Assembly (NCBI GenBank): GCA_946554335.1
Contig: CAMNSA010000015.1
Location: 1-60,442 of the forward strand
Source: an uncultured Neglectibacter sp.
GTDB lineage: Bacteria > Bacillota > Clostridia > Oscillospirales > Acutalibacteraceae
Direction of reading: 5' to 3'
Length of the DNA: 60,442 nt
Below are positions 14,427-48,785 of this stretch, piece after piece (position 1 is the first letter of the stretch; each line of letters begins with the position of its first letter). The notes beneath the pieces are model-generated. The model saw only the letters and a program-made list of their open reading frames with translations. It was not told the origin of the DNA and searched no databases. A program made the translations under genes and the position numbers.

Positions 14427-14546
14427 TAAAGTTGCCGGAAAGAACAGCCAAAAAATTCTGAAAAGAATATGAATTTTCCTTTTCCAAAAAGAAGAGACTA
14501 GCTTTAAGCTTTTCGTTTCCGGAAAGTGGGAAAGGATGACAAACCC

Positions 14547-15893
14547 ATGAAAAAATCCTCTAAAATAAGACTTCTGTCTTTTTCCGCTGCGTTTCTCCTG
14601 ACTTTAGGCGGGTTTCTGCTGGACTCCCGGCTCTCTCTGCACCTTCAGAAGACCGATCTGGAATACGCCTACCGCCGGGCGCTGAACGACCTTTGCGACT
14701 ATGTTTCCGGCCTTCACTCCACATTGGAAAAAGCGGCCTATGTAAACACGCCCATGTTACAGAACACCGTGTGCGCGAAGCTGATGGAGCAAAGCGGCGG
14801 CGCCAAGGCCGCCATGGCCATCCTCCCCTTCTCCCAGGAAAGAGGCGGGCAGATCAGCCGCTTTCTCGCCCAGGTGGGGGACTACGCTCTGGCGCTGAGC
14901 AGAAAGGTCTCCTCCGGCAAGCAGCTTTCCAAAGAGGAGCTTCAAAGCTTTCTCACCATGGAGGAATATGCCCGGCGCCTCAATGAAGCGCTTTCCGAAA
15001 TGCAGACGGAGTTGGACGAGAAAGAGGGGGAGATCGGCCGCACCCAAAGCGTGCTGAACAATGTGGACGACCTCTCCAGCCTCCCTGAATTCGACGACGG
15101 CTTAGAGGAGACTGTCCGGGAATTCACCCAATTTCCCAGCCTGCTTTATGACGGCCCCTTTTCGGATCATATTGCCCGGCGGGAAGCGCTATTCCTGCAG
15201 GACAAATCGGAGGTCACCCGGGAGGAGGCCCAGAAAAGGGCCGCCGCCTTTCTGGACTGTACTCCCGAAGAGCTTCAGGACGGCGGAGAGACAGGCACAG
15301 CCCTTGCCTCCTTCGTGTTCCTCTGCGGAGAAAAGCGGATCTGCGTCACCAAAAAGGGCGGCGAGATCGCCTATTGCAAAAGCTCTCTTTCCCCCAGGGA
15401 GGAAAACCTCAGCGAGCAAGAGGCAGTAAAGGCCGCCAGGAAGCTGCTGGAAGCCGCGGGGATCTCCTCCCTTCAGGAGAGCTACACCCTGAAAAGCGAG
15501 CAGCGCTGCACTATCAATTTTTCCTATGTGACAGAGGACGAATTACAGGTAATGTGCTACCCCGATCTCATCAAGGTGAGCATTGAGCTGGAAAAAGGCT
15601 CTCTGGTAGAGTATGACGCCTCCGGGTATCTGATGAATCATCACGAGAGGCAGCTGCAGGCCCCCATTCTGGATCAGGAGGAGGCCGTACAGAATAAAAG
15701 CCCTCTGCTAAATGATAAAAGCTCCCGTCTGGCCCTCATCCCCACCCCGGGACTTCACGAGGTGCTGTGTTGGGAATATCTTTGTGAAAACGAGAAGGGG
15801 CAGGAATTCCTTCTCTATCTCAACGCCCAAAGCGGCATGGAGGAGCAGCTTTACCTGATGCAGGAAACGCCCGGAGGAAAATTGGCCTTTTAG
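14547..15893 (+). CDS. ypeB: Spore germination protein YpeB
   Basis: YpeB is an inner-membrane protein made in the forespore that is needed for the cortex-lytic enzyme SleB to be functional. The 448-residue protein starts with an uncleaved signal anchor (LLSFSAAFLLTLGGFLL), then a helical middle region with the family stretch LNNVDDLSSLPEFDDG, then PepSY-like repeats in the C-terminal half. I chose ATG at 14547 with AAAGGA 10 nt upstream rather than the in-frame GTG at 14526. No sleB lies next to it, unlike in Bacillus. Its presence is good evidence that the organism sporulates. Its last codons lie inside a hairpin and tandem repeat. Confidence 0.9.
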   Translation: MKKSSKIRLLSFSAAFLLTLGGFLLDSRLSLHLQKTDLEYAYRRALNDLCDYVSGLHSTLEKAAYVNTPMLQNTVCAKLMEQSGGAKAAMAILPFSQERGGQISRFLAQVGDYALALSRKVSSGKQLSKEELQSFLTMEEYARRLNEALSEMQTELDEKEGEIGRTQSVLNNVDDLSSLPEFDDGLEETVREFTQFPSLLYDGPFSDHIARREALFLQDKSEVTREEAQKRAAAFLDCTPEELQDGGETGTALASFVFLCGEKRICVTKKGGEIAYCKSSLSPREENLSEQEAVKAARKLLEAAGISSLQESYTLKSEQRCTINFSYVTEDELQVMCYPDLIKVSIELEKGSLVEYDASGYLMNHHERQLQAPILDQEEAVQNKSPLLNDKSSRLALIPTPGLHEVLCWEYLCENEKGQEFLLYLNAQSGMEEQLYLMQETPGGKLAF

Positions 15894-26904: not shown

Positions 26905-28287
26905 TCACTGCTTTCCCAAGGTCTCCGCCTCTTCCTCCCGCCTGAGAGAGCGGAAAAAGGCCAAAAGGAAGGGCACACAGCAAATCGCCGTACACAGGTC
27001 CGCCGCTGTCTGGGTGATCTGTACCCCGGTAAGGCCCAATGTTCTGGGCAGGATGGCGATCAAGGGCAGGAAAAATACACCCTGGCGGCAGGAGGAGATA
27101 AAGGTCGCCTGCCACGAACATCCCACAGTCTGGAAGGTCATATTGGAAAGCACGATGATCGGCTGAAGGACCAGCGTCAGGCATTGGGCCCGCATGGCAA
27201 AGGCGCCGATTTCGATCACTTCCCGATCGTCCGCGCGAAACACCGTCATCAGCTGCGGAGCGAGGAAAAAGCCGATCACGCCCAGCAAAGTGAGAACCGA
27301 AACGCCCACTGCCACGGCAAAGCGGAAACATTCCCGCACCCGGCCGTACTTTTTGGCGCCGTAATTAAAGCCCACCACCGGCATATAGCCCTGGCCAAAA
27401 CCGATCATGGTAGAGCCGATGAGCATCATCACCCGTCCCACAATAGACATCGCCGCCACGGCCGGGTCGCCATAGACCGCCGCGCTGACATTTAGGGACA
27501 CGGTGGCGATACTGGCAAGCCCCTGTCTGCAAAGGGAGGGAAGCCCGGTTTTCACAATGAGCCAATAGGTGGAGAAATGCCGGGAAACCAGCCGGATATC
27601 CAGATGTACCGTACTTTTGCCGCTGAGGAAAAAGAACAGCATAATACTGAAGCTGACGCACTGGCTGAACAGTGTGGCGATGGCCGCCCCGGAGATCCCC
27701 CAATTAAACACAAAGATGCACAAAGGGTCCAGCGCAATATTCAGCACGCCCCCGGTGGCGATCCCGATCATAGAAAGGGTTGCCCTGCCCTGAGAGCGCA
27801 GGATATTGTTGAGCACAAAGGAGGCGCACATGACAGGAGCGCCGAAGAGGATGTATTGGGCATAGCTTTGCGCGTAGGGCAGGATCGTCTTGGTGGAACC
27901 CAACACCCGCATCAGCCCTTCTCCCCAGGAAAGGCCCCCCACCGTCAGCAGGAGGCCGAAGGCCAGCGCTGTGAAAAAGGCTGTGGAGCCCACCTGATTA
28001 GCCTTCTGATTTTCCTGCTGGCCCAGAAGCCTGGAAATATTGGCTCCCGCGCCCATGCCCAGCATGAAGCCCACTGCCTGGATGATCGCCATCAGGGAGA
28101 ACACCACCCCTACCGCTCCGGCGGCGCTGGTGCCCAGCTGCGACACGAAAAAGGTGTCCGCCATATTGTAGATGGAGGTGGTCAGCATGCTGATGATGGT
28201 GGGAGCCGCCAGCTTTAAGATCAGCCCCTGCACCGGCGTTTGAGTCATTTTGTGGTATTGCTTTTCCTGCGCGGTCATTTCACTCAT
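26905..28287 (-). CDS. MATE family multidrug/sodium efflux transporter
   Basis: A 460-residue protein with twelve hydrophobic helices in two related halves. The N-terminal half has the family pattern PTIISMLTTSIYNMADTFFVSQLG and the equivalent region of the second half has AVYGDPAVAAMSIVGRVMML. MATE pumps export organic cations with Na+ or H+ entry. I chose ATG at 28287 (GAGGAGAGG 7 nt upstream); the longer frame to 28356 adds 23 residues that overlap the promoter. It is a single-gene unit with its own promoter and terminator. Confidence 0.92.
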   Translation of the reverse strand: MSEMTAQEKQYHKMTQTPVQGLILKLAAPTIISMLTTSIYNMADTFFVSQLGTSAAGAVGVVFSLMAIIQAVGFMLGMGAGANISRLLGQQENQKANQVGSTAFFTALAFGLLLTVGGLSWGEGLMRVLGSTKTILPYAQSYAQYILFGAPVMCASFVLNNILRSQGRATLSMIGIATGGVLNIALDPLCIFVFNWGISGAAIATLFSQCVSFSIMLFFFLSGKSTVHLDIRLVSRHFSTYWLIVKTGLPSLCRQGLASIATVSLNVSAAVYGDPAVAAMSIVGRVMMLIGSTMIGFGQGYMPVVGFNYGAKKYGRVRECFRFAVAVGVSVLTLLGVIGFFLAPQLMTVFRADDREVIEIGAFAMRAQCLTLVLQPIIVLSNMTFQTVGCSWQATFISSCRQGVFFLPLIAILPRTLGLTGVQITQTAADLCTAICCVPFLLAFFRSLRREEEAETLGKQ

Positions 28288-46798: not shown

Positions 46799-47224
46799 AT
46801 GGCATACAGTGAAAAGGTAATGGACCATTTCGCCAACCCCAGAAATGTGGGAGAGATGAAGGACGCCAACGGCATGGGCGAAGTGGGAAACCCCAAATGC
46901 GGGGACATCATGCGCATGTACATCAAGGTGGAGAACAACATCATCAAGGACGTTTCCTTTATGACCTTCGGCTGCGGGGCGGCCATCGCCACCAGCAGCA
47001 TGGCCACTGAGATGATCAAGGGAAAATCCCTGGACGACGCTTTGAAGCTTACCAACAAAGCAGTGATGGAGGCCCTGGACGGGCTTCCGCCGGTAAAGGT
47101 CCACTGCTCCGTTTTAGCGGAGCAGGCCATCAAAGCGGCCATCTCCGATTACTACCGCCGCCAGGGGATCGACCCCACCCCCTTCGTGGGCGAGGTTCCG
47201 GAATGTGAGGCCTGCGAGCTCTAA
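46799..47224 (+). CDS. nifU: Fe-S cluster scaffold NifU/IscU
   Basis: A 141-residue scaffold on which NifS builds Fe-S clusters. The three ligand cysteines are in GNPKCGD, FGCGAA and VHCSVLA. The C-terminal tail (VPECEACEL) adds two more cysteines, common in Clostridia NifU proteins. It lacks the second, Nfu-type domain of diazotroph NifU. With nifS it forms the minimal Fe-S system typical of strict anaerobes. Confidence 0.95.
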   Translation: MAYSEKVMDHFANPRNVGEMKDANGMGEVGNPKCGDIMRMYIKVENNIIKDVSFMTFGCGAAIATSSMATEMIKGKSLDDALKLTNKAVMEALDGLPPVKVHCSVLAEQAIKAAISDYYRRQGIDPTPFVGEVPECEACEL

Positions 47225-47225
47225 A

Positions 47226-47274
47226 AAGGAACCGGCCCTGCTTTTTTTTAAAAAGCAGAGCCGGTTCCTTTTTT
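47226..47274. terminator. Bidirectional terminator after nifU
   Basis: AAGGAACCGGC...GCAG pairs with CTGC...GCCGGTTCCTT and is followed by TTTTTT on the plus strand; the minus strand likewise ends in a T-run. A second G/C-rich stem GGGGAGAG/CTCTCCCC (47279-47310) follows towards the convergent gene. Confidence 0.9.
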
Positions 47275-47320
47275 GCAGAGGGGAGAGAACGCCGTCCCGT
47301 CCTCTCCCCTTCGGAAGAAA

Positions 47321-48124
47321 CTATTTACAGCATCTTCCGTTGTCGGGAAGATCAGTGGCCTTCGGGGGGAAGAACTCGTCTGTGGGGAAGTCGATGCGTC
47401 TGAACAGCTCGCAGGGGTTGTCGCTGGAGGCCACACATTCCTTTTCGGGAATACAGAAATCGTAAGCGGGGATCAGCATCTGCACGTTGCGCACGATCTG
47501 CACGATGATGAACAGGCCGATGGTGGCATACACGGTGTTCTTGCACTGGCCACATTCAAAATTGTCGCCGTAGCGCTGGCAGATACATTCCGGGATCCGG
47601 CAATAGGGCTCGCAGCCGCATACGGGATGGTCGCACAGCCTGGCGGAAAGGGCCACGGGCTCCGCCACCTGGACCGTGGCCTTGGGAAGCACCTTGCAGT
47701 CCTGTACATCCACGTCCTCCAGACAGCAGTCGGAAGAATACATCTTCACATTGCCCTCGCTGCCGTAGAGGATCACCTTCTTGTTGAAGATGGAAATACC
47801 GTTGATGGGTACCGGGCAAGAGGTAGGACCTCCGAACAGATCCAGGCACACATCGAAGAAGAAGGTCATATCCACGGAGTAAAAGCCCTTGTTGAAGGGA
47901 ATGGGCTGAAGGTCCAGATAGACCGTGATGACGCTTACATCCCGGATGCGCACATTGGTTGCGCTGTCTACCAAAGGCTGTCTCGAGGCGGGAAACAGCA
48001 CTCTGATATCCTCCAGGCAATCTTTATCAGAACACGAGTCGTAAATACGCATCGCGTCGATACAGACCGCCTCTTTGAAATAGTCCCGGCAGTCGTACTC
48101 GGGAATATTCTCGTTGTCGGCCAT
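47321..48124 (-). CDS. Uncharacterised cysteine-rich Clostridia protein, possible spore-coat component
   Basis: A 267-residue protein with 22 cysteines, including CC pairs and a dense CGCEPYC...CIC...CGQC cluster in the C-terminal third. Conserved-looking stretches are KEAVCIDAMRIYDSCSDKDC, PFNKGFYSVDMTFFF and FNKKVILYGSEGN. One hydrophobic segment (YATIGLFIIVQIV) follows the Cys cluster. I know similar unnamed proteins from Clostridia but no function. A sigma-K-like promoter precedes it, which with the Cys content suggests a disulfide- or metal-rich coat protein. The start is ATG at 48124 behind AAAGGAGGAGA; the longer frame to 48166 has no such site. Confidence 0.7.
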   Translation of the reverse strand: MADNENIPEYDCRDYFKEAVCIDAMRIYDSCSDKDCLEDIRVLFPASRQPLVDSATNVRIRDVSVITVYLDLQPIPFNKGFYSVDMTFFFDVCLDLFGGPTSCPVPINGISIFNKKVILYGSEGNVKMYSSDCCLEDVDVQDCKVLPKATVQVAEPVALSARLCDHPVCGCEPYCRIPECICQRYGDNFECGQCKNTVYATIGLFIIVQIVRNVQMLIPAYDFCIPEKECVASSDNPCELFRRIDFPTDEFFPPKATDLPDNGRCCK

Positions 48125-48153
48125 AGAAATCTCCTCCTTTAAGGTTTCTTCTT

Positions 48154-48180
48154 TATTGTATGACAAAGGAGGAAATTGGT
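48154..48180 (-). promoter_or_regulatory. Sigma-K-like promoter of the cysteine-rich gene
   Basis: On the minus strand CATACAATA (48154-48162) fits the sigma-K -10 CATAnnnTA exactly and also the sigma-E form CATACAnT. AC within CACC (48179-48180 is the AC) lies 16 bp upstream, as in the sigma-K -35 mACm. No vegetative -35 is visible. The ribosome binding site follows about 20 nt later. Confidence 0.55.
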
Positions 48181-48230
48181 GCTAAAGGGCGCCCTCCGCT
48201 TGAGATGCCCTTACCGGAATTCTTCGGGTA

Positions 48231-48785
48231 TTATGATTTCCTTTCGCTCTTTTTTTCGTTCTTCTTTTCCGCTTTTTCCGTGGGGTCCTGCAGCAGGATC
48301 TGGGCTGCCGCCCGTTTGATCCCGGCCTGGGCCGCCAGACACAGAGCCTGCTGCTCCGGGGATCCTCCCTCTGCGCAGGCTTTTTGCAGATCCTTGTGTA
48401 CCCGGGAAAGCGCCTCCTGATGCGCCTTTAAAAAGTAGTGAAAGGTCTCCTCGCAAAGGGGCATTTCCGAAAACAGCGCCTTGATCTCCTGAAGGGAAAG
48501 CTCCGTTTTCAGCATACAGATCATCAAAAGCCCCGCCAGATGGATCCGCCCATACTTCTTCTTTTCCGGGCGGGGCAGGACCCCGTTTTTCACATAGTTG
48601 TTCACCATGGAGCTGGTAAGCAGCGCGGCTTCGCCTCCGCGCTCAAAGGGCTCTATGATCTCCTTCAGATAGAGCAGCACCTGATCCATGTATAAAGGGA
48701 TTGCGGGAAGCTCCCCCCAGCTGGGGAAAACCTTCTCCTGTCCCTCCTTCATCCAAGCCTGTACCTTTTCCCAAGCGGCCTCCAT
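48231..48785 (-). CDS. DUF1836 domain-containing protein
   Basis: A 184-residue protein. Residues about 30-125 match DUF1836: MDQVLLYLKEII, LTSSMVNNYVKNGVLPRPEKKKYGRIHLAGLLMICMLK. The pattern of a helix-turn-helix with NYVK and KKKY resembles the MerR-like N-terminal fold, so a DNA-binding regulator is possible. The C-terminus is helical and ends in a Lys/Glu/Ser-rich tail. It is divergent from pcrA and lies upstream of the cysteine-rich gene on the same strand. Confidence 0.85.
   Translation of the reverse strand: MEAAWEKVQAWMKEGQEKVFPSWGELPAIPLYMDQVLLYLKEIIEPFERGGEAALLTSSMVNNYVKNGVLPRPEKKKYGRIHLAGLLMICMLKTELSLQEIKALFSEMPLCEETFHYFLKAHQEALSRVHKDLQKACAEGGSPEQQALCLAAQAGIKRAAAQILLQDPTEKAEKKNEKKSERKS

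Follow-up and report, generated by a model that had tools for sequence, protein, structure and literature searches.

A probable sigma-K-dependent gene for a cysteine-rich spore-surface protein of Clostridia is split by recombinase-bearing elements in relatives

Programmed gene reconstitution during sporulation is known for a handful of Bacillus and Clostridium genes, and the Oscillospirales and their kin are gut spore-formers that have been little studied. The interrupted spore genes that are described comprise sigK, spsM, spoVFB, gerE, yabG and spoVR (PMC5025042, PMC5595907, PMC10747680). The locus presented here can be likened to skin in sigK of B. subtilis and C. difficile, SPbeta in spsM, vfbin in spoVFB, gin in gerE and yin in yabG. 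It shares with skin-like elements a serine recombinase, an insertion in a coding sequence and the exact restoration of that sequence (here in silico), as well as an apparent late-sporulation target and the occurrence of prophage and non-prophage forms, as far as the latter features are described in PMC5025042, PMC5595907 and PMC10747680. Unlike the skin-like systems, the target is a different, unnamed gene, four sites are used with separate recombinase clades for sites A, B and C, some copies of the gene are cut twice, and excision is a prediction. The known interrupted genes do not include this family in the literature searched, in which we found no report of its interruption by elements; we therefore regard our observations as a known arrangement in an unnamed gene, the new aspects being this target gene, its four target sites and the multiply cut copies. 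With fair confidence, we propose that it is a late mother-cell gene of spore-forming Clostridia, controlled by sigma-K and coding for a spore-surface protein, which in relatives is split by elements and restored by their precise excision.

A second group of described systems concerns the protein itself. The self-assembling exosporium proteins CsxA of C. sporogenes, CdeC of C. difficile and ExsY/CotY of Bacillus are likewise described as rich in cysteines and tied to spore-formers; the likeness is one of description. The size of the protein is similar to that given for CsxA, 33 kDa (PMC7333573).

The gene lies in a stretch of 60,442 nucleotides from an uncultured Neglectibacter sp., which is referred to as the window in its full length. 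The copy in the window is intact, and the splitting of the gene in relatives is not visible from the window. The features of the gene and its surroundings are as follows.

47321..48124, minus strand: open reading frame of the family, 267 aa, intact, with invariant cysteines 21, 31, 36, 224, 230 and 238
48132..48140, minus strand: strong ribosome-binding site AAAGGAGGA; AAAGGAGG starts at 48140
48154..48162, minus strand: -10 element CATACAATA of the sigma-K-type promoter
48179..48180, minus strand: -35 dinucleotide AC, separated from the -10 element by 16 nt
47225..47274, no strand assigned: inverted repeat with T-runs between the gene and the convergent nifU, read from the sequence

The frame runs from an ATG at 48124 to a stop at 47321, has a GC content of 74% at third, 52% at first and 38% at second codon positions, and is the single copy of the gene in its genome. 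An earlier note on this DNA had counted 22 cysteines in 267 residues and described conserved-looking blocks; the open reading frame confirms the former, and the latter proved real, since an alignment of 41 sequences (that of the window plus 40 relatives) has 49 invariant columns. The neighbours in the window are housekeeping genes, namely nifS and nifU downstream in convergent orientation and the genes for a DUF1836 protein and pcrA upstream. The inverted repeat is a probable terminator shared by nifU and the cysteine-rich gene; it is absent from the output of a scan over 47200-48300. The earlier note had also pointed to ypeB. A YpeB-like protein is indeed encoded in the window (14526-15893), but it adds little support because it lies 31-33 kb away and scores 227.5 bits against a family cut-off of 303.55 bits.

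The Pfam and NCBIfam models gave no match to the 267-residue protein, so that the suggestion of a new protein family holds for these two libraries. An AlphaFold model is beta-rich and of moderate quality (pLDDT 73, pTM 0.64), and a fold search with this model returned no convincing match. Although the richness in cysteines is real, its conservation is partial: over the 41 sequences, which contain between 11 and 23 cysteines each, six of the 22 are invariant, whereas the others vary, with the exception of Cys 266, which 37 of the sequences retain. The invariant residues are spaced C-x9-C-x4-C near the N-terminus and C-x5-C-x7-C near the C-terminus. In eight distant relatives with open frames of 216-305 aa, all six were kept in seven and four in the eighth. 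Two full-length copies of the family per genome were seen in four genomes (G106, G130, G152 and G173).

A metal-storing protein, which the earlier note had considered, finds no support in this pattern. No clustered Cys-x-x-Cys array is conserved across the 41 sequences, and we reject a metallothionein-like metal store because most of the cysteines are unconserved and the six that are invariant have spacings of x9 and x4, and of x5 and x7. A related possibility is that the protein is made under sigma-K late in the mother cell and has a non-structural role, for example in metal or redox buffering in the mother cell or the coat. The number of cysteines, 22 here and 11-23 over the family, and the adjoining cysteine desulfurase/NifU pair would fit such a role; however, the invariance of only six cysteines, the lack of a kept Cys-x-x-Cys cluster and the presence of nifS and nifU in the fetched stretch of only one of the 80 relatives' loci argue against it, and we consider it unlikely. 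Instead, we favour a structural protein of the coat or exosporium that is probably disulfide-linked. The assignment to the spore coat that the earlier note suggested is a good but indirect inference.

Distant homologues were located in two further genomes.

L220, 6506-7279 and 12286-13071: distant homologues in genome G202
L222, 2028-2888: distant homologue in genome G092

Genes for class-V aminotransferases resembling cysteine desulfurases also occur near these homologues in both genomes, as the window copy adjoins nifS/nifU, which is possibly due to chance. One of the homologues in G202 adjoins a gene for a cysteine-rich DUF4489 protein (L220, 7557-8150; 14 cysteines in 198 residues), possibly another spore protein. 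The homologue in G092 (287-289 aa, 20 cysteines) lies about 2.5 kb from zapA, and zapA is also described in the neighbourhood of csxA (PMC7333573); we take this neighbourhood of one distant homologue as a lead only towards a link with csxA.

The sigma-K consensus consists of AC about 16 nt upstream of CATAnnnTA. The earlier note had described an AC 16 bp upstream of the -10 element and no vegetative -35, and this is exact: the window gene is preceded by AC-N16-CATACAATA, and a scan of 47200-48300 on both strands found no sigma-70-type site. Within the 60-kb window, the strict pattern AC-N16/17-CATAnnnTA has one further match besides that at the cysteine-rich gene, on the plus strand at 28143. 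The spacing observed here agrees with PMC517825, according to which 14-16 nt separate a 5-nt from a 10-nt element. We analysed the upstream regions of relatives in two sets. From 80 upstream stretches, window included, 62 were used, in which the gene copy is intact, the ribosome site is clear and no fewer than 75 nt of sequence are available; split, truncated or unclear cases were dropped. The pattern AC-N16/17-CATAnnnT was present within 110 nt upstream of 56 of the 62 (the window and 55 of 61 relatives; six relatives had no match), with 16 nt between AC and CATA in 49 and 17 nt in seven. This is more than expected by chance, as 100 dinucleotide-preserving shuffles of the 62 stretches gave 0.92 matches on average and never more than 3. 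The second set contained 33 copies out of 39 loci, one of which also contains an upstream stretch of the first set; here, the -10 element was found in all 33 and the full pattern in 30, against a mean of 0.44 and a maximum of 3 in 200 single-base shuffles. A match was also present upstream of five of eight split copies (the exceptions being L092, L096 and L098), and a sigma-K-like site preceded six of 14 distant genes and was absent from the other eight.

Since the -10 elements of sigma-E and sigma-K are alike, CATACAAT would also fit the consensus of sigma-E, and the gene might then belong to the early mother-cell programme. Against this, the conserved upstream element is an AC at 16 nt, and the strict sigma-E-like pattern ATA-N15-18-CATACAnT was found in none of the 62 intact copies, which makes transcription by sigma-E in place of sigma-K improbable. 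A sigma-70-like pattern was likewise found in 0/62. Both sporulation sigma factors are encoded in the same genome as the window gene, each by one gene without internal stops. SigK reaches 299.6 bits with PRK05803 (cut-off 252) and 286.9 bits with TIGR02846, just under the cut-off of 298.65, and SigE, which is encoded behind a SpoIIGA-like open reading frame, reaches 354.6 bits with PRK08301 (cut-off 339). The assignment of SigK rests on PRK05803, a plain genome search for sigK being unspecific with matches in 11 of 14 controls too. The conserved promoter and the presence of SigK and SigE thus lend strong support to the sigma-K-dependent late mother-cell control that the earlier note had proposed. 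Further support comes from the strong carriers in the class sample, all of which have a spore-marker hit, and from the split copies, an arrangement known for mother-cell genes. We therefore consider the prediction of a sigma-K-dependent, late mother-cell gene to be strongly supported.

In a sample of 243 genomes of the class, a profile search matched 111 at E 1e-5, of which 93 had strong matches (E below 1e-20) and the remaining 18 weak ones. At the same threshold, the family was matched in 247 of 297 genomes of the order. Of 249 genomes of the phylum, 18 had a match; in this sample, four matches were strong and all within the class, own genome included, and the 14 matches outside the class were all weak. 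SpoIVA was matched in 183 of the 243 class genomes (181 above cut-off), and the own genome is also SpoIVA-positive. Strong family matches were found in 90 of the 183 SpoIVA-positive and in three of the 60 SpoIVA-negative class genomes; expressed the other way, 90 of 93 strong carriers are SpoIVA-positive compared to 93 of 150 others (Fisher p = 5e-11, a value that ignores kinship). In each of the three strong carriers lacking a SpoIVA hit (G098, G106 and G149), SpoIIIAE was matched, above the cut-off in one and below it in two, and therefore all 93 strong carriers in the class sample have a spore-marker hit. Wide occurrence in non-spore-formers, which according to the earlier note would speak against a sporulation gene, was looked for and not found, and in the class sample the strong carriers appear to be restricted to spore-formers. 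Five matches in phage records of faecal origin probably stem from bacterial DNA, as 91-94% of the query is covered by each.

Among the 93 strong class genomes, 20 have a split gene, and the breaks fall at four positions (residues ~31, ~70, ~100 and ~155). The split genomes are listed by site, followed by the equivalent positions in the window, all of which are empty and were computed from residue numbers.

Site A (residue ~31): G200, G298, G147, G225, G067, G276
Site B (residue ~70): G128, G292, G276
Site D (residue ~100): G124
Site C (residue ~155): G123, G189, G291, G241, G224, G167, G049, G087, G073, G150, G099, G124
48017..48043, minus strand: equivalent of site A, codons 28-36 (YDSCSDKDC)
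47903..47932, minus strand: approximate equivalent of site B, residues ~65-74
47819..47830, minus strand: approximate equivalent of site D, residues ~99-102, a site found in one genome (G124)
47651..47686, minus strand: approximate equivalent of site C, residues ~147-158

A serine recombinase is encoded in the fetched junction stretch of 19 of the 20 genomes, and none was found in that of G099. Both halves lie on one contig in ten genomes; in the remaining ones, the pieces are on different contigs or a single piece was found. The copy in G124 is in three pieces, that in G276 is cut at A and B, and G067 has an additional copy that is apparently unsplit. The same arrangement was seen in the set of 80 loci, 15 of which have a match that starts at residue 28-33, past a junction. 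In eight of these, the missing first 31-33 residues are encoded on the same strand at a distance of 1.9-3.9 kb upstream, and a large serine recombinase gene occupies the intervening DNA; such a recombinase is present in all of the 15 except L076. Caproiciproducens galactitolivorans BS-1 (L082) has a split copy with an element of about 2.7 kb at site A, and Neglectibacter timonensis (L074) has an intact one. Among the matches listed for the order sample, ten begin at residues 29-33. An assembly error can be rejected as the source of the split copies, given that both halves are on one contig in ten class genomes and eight loci and that the recombinase clades match.

Some loci show additional rearrangements. 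In G037, the gene pieces are about 18 kb apart on opposite strands (L180, 832-1380; L181, 9031-9663), as would be expected if the insertion had been followed by an inversion, and the piece on the opposite strand covers residues 32-72. G276 has an extra C-terminal gene piece. A short extra piece with residues 16-41 (G275:C49:4628-4705) is accompanied by a full-length copy elsewhere in the genome and may represent the 5' end of another copy that has been split. In two site-C copies (L142, 2122-3315; L143, 1482-2675), the 5' half runs in frame into the element, giving 398 codons.

All ten recombinases that were scanned contain the Resolvase and Recombinase domains. The site-A enzymes have 477-579 aa (14 loci), and five site-C enzymes have only 281-284 aa, two of which were scanned and gave no zinc-ribbon match. 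The large serine recombinases and phage integrases to which they can be compared include those of Terrisporobacter and Thermoanaerobacterium phages, with about 40% identity. In a tree of 43 rows, 42 of them different, the recombinases of sites A (27 rows, two identical), B (three rows) and C (11 rows) are each set apart from all others by a branch, the supports being 100/99, 100/99 and 99/97, respectively, which suggests that each of these sites has its own recombinase lineage. As the rows were chosen for lying at this gene, the tree shows separate lineages per site and not exclusivity. The branch leading to the site-D row is long, and the program warned that long branches meet. L205_other, which is not the recombinase just upstream of the L205 gene piece, falls beside site C. 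Among the 32 matches listed for the site-A recombinase of L063 (= G298) in the class sample, six are at this gene and include the five best (E below 1e-110), and the others are elsewhere, with 34-41% identity.

Where both halves are on one contig, the element measures between 1.4 kb (G123) and about 40.5 kb (G200). In the latter, six of eight large open reading frames scanned match portal, terminase, minor head, tape-measure, tail-fibre or minor-tail families. In IMG/VR, 14 viral contigs carry pieces of the gene, 11 of which start at residues 30-33; a recombinase lies directly upstream in eight of these 11, and of the three remaining stretches two are identical. One viral contig (L217) carries residues 29-156 of the gene, with a break at either end of this piece. 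The sizes, the phage genes of G200 and the viral contigs indicate that prophages and very small elements target the same gene. We found neither a consistent candidate for a directionality factor in the elements nor a consistent sigma-E or sigma-K promoter in front of the recombinases, L146 alone having a sigma-E-like match. The lack of a consistent mother-cell promoter is not fatal to the proposed timing, because the recombinase of C. difficile skin is described as constitutive too, with the timing set by a separate factor (PMC5025042).

The sequences of the split copies bear on whether these are functional. When the flanks of eight site-A loci, the site at which restoration was tried, were joined in silico at the shared GA, open frames of 270-292 aa were obtained in all eight, each with YDSCSDKDC at the seam. 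Between pairs of species in which the gene is split in both, dN/dS was 0.023-0.121 for the site-A 3' halves (eight of nine pairs, one being saturated) and 0.11-0.49 in five pairs for the site-A 5' halves, which have 31-33 codons and are noisier, one pair being identical. At site C, dN/dS was 0-0.033 in the first and 0.006-0.093 in the second half of the gene (ten pairs each). Both halves of the split copies thus remain under purifying selection. Low dN/dS and open rejoined frames argue that the split genes have not been lost, and we reject the notion that they are pseudogenes. One could also argue that the gene is a mere conserved landing site for serine integrases, the interrupted copies being dead and the gene dispensable, since large serine recombinases are described as often targeting conserved genes (PMC10083194) and the gene was not matched at E 1e-5 in 50 of the 297 genomes of the order. 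However, selection on both open halves and the exact restoration of the frame in every locus tried speak against this, and four sites in a single gene of 267 codons would have to be a coincidence; we regard this explanation as very unlikely. On the simplest interpretation, the element would be excised at the time at which the protein is required.

Taken together, we propose that the gene is expressed under sigma-K at a late stage of the mother cell, as the promoter and the distribution suggest. The beta-rich protein would assemble on the spore, where, by analogy with CsxA-like proteins, its six invariant cysteines may be cross-linked by disulfides. In strains with a split gene, the mother-cell programme would, by analogy with skin, trigger excision before the protein is made, and each element would be removed precisely by its own serine recombinase. 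Excision during sporulation, the mother-cell timing, the location on the spore surface and the role of the disulfides are parts of this model that we infer. As its product would be required in a terminal cell only, the gene could tolerate insertions that are excised in the mother cell. We further speculate, with evenly balanced confidence, that few genes of gut Clostridia have been split as recurrently as this single late mother-cell spore gene, hit at four sites by at least four recombinase lineages that range from prophages to single-recombinase elements, and that three-piece copies need two programmed excisions before the spore surface is finished.

If so, the family would extend programmed gene reconstitution to the order Oscillospirales and their kin, with one gene repeatedly hit, and the insertions would provide a natural genetic argument that the gene is needed only in the cell that will die. 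In addition, the family may serve as a marker for a spore surface that is so far uncharacterised, and its many natural pairs of recombinases and sites form a large collection.
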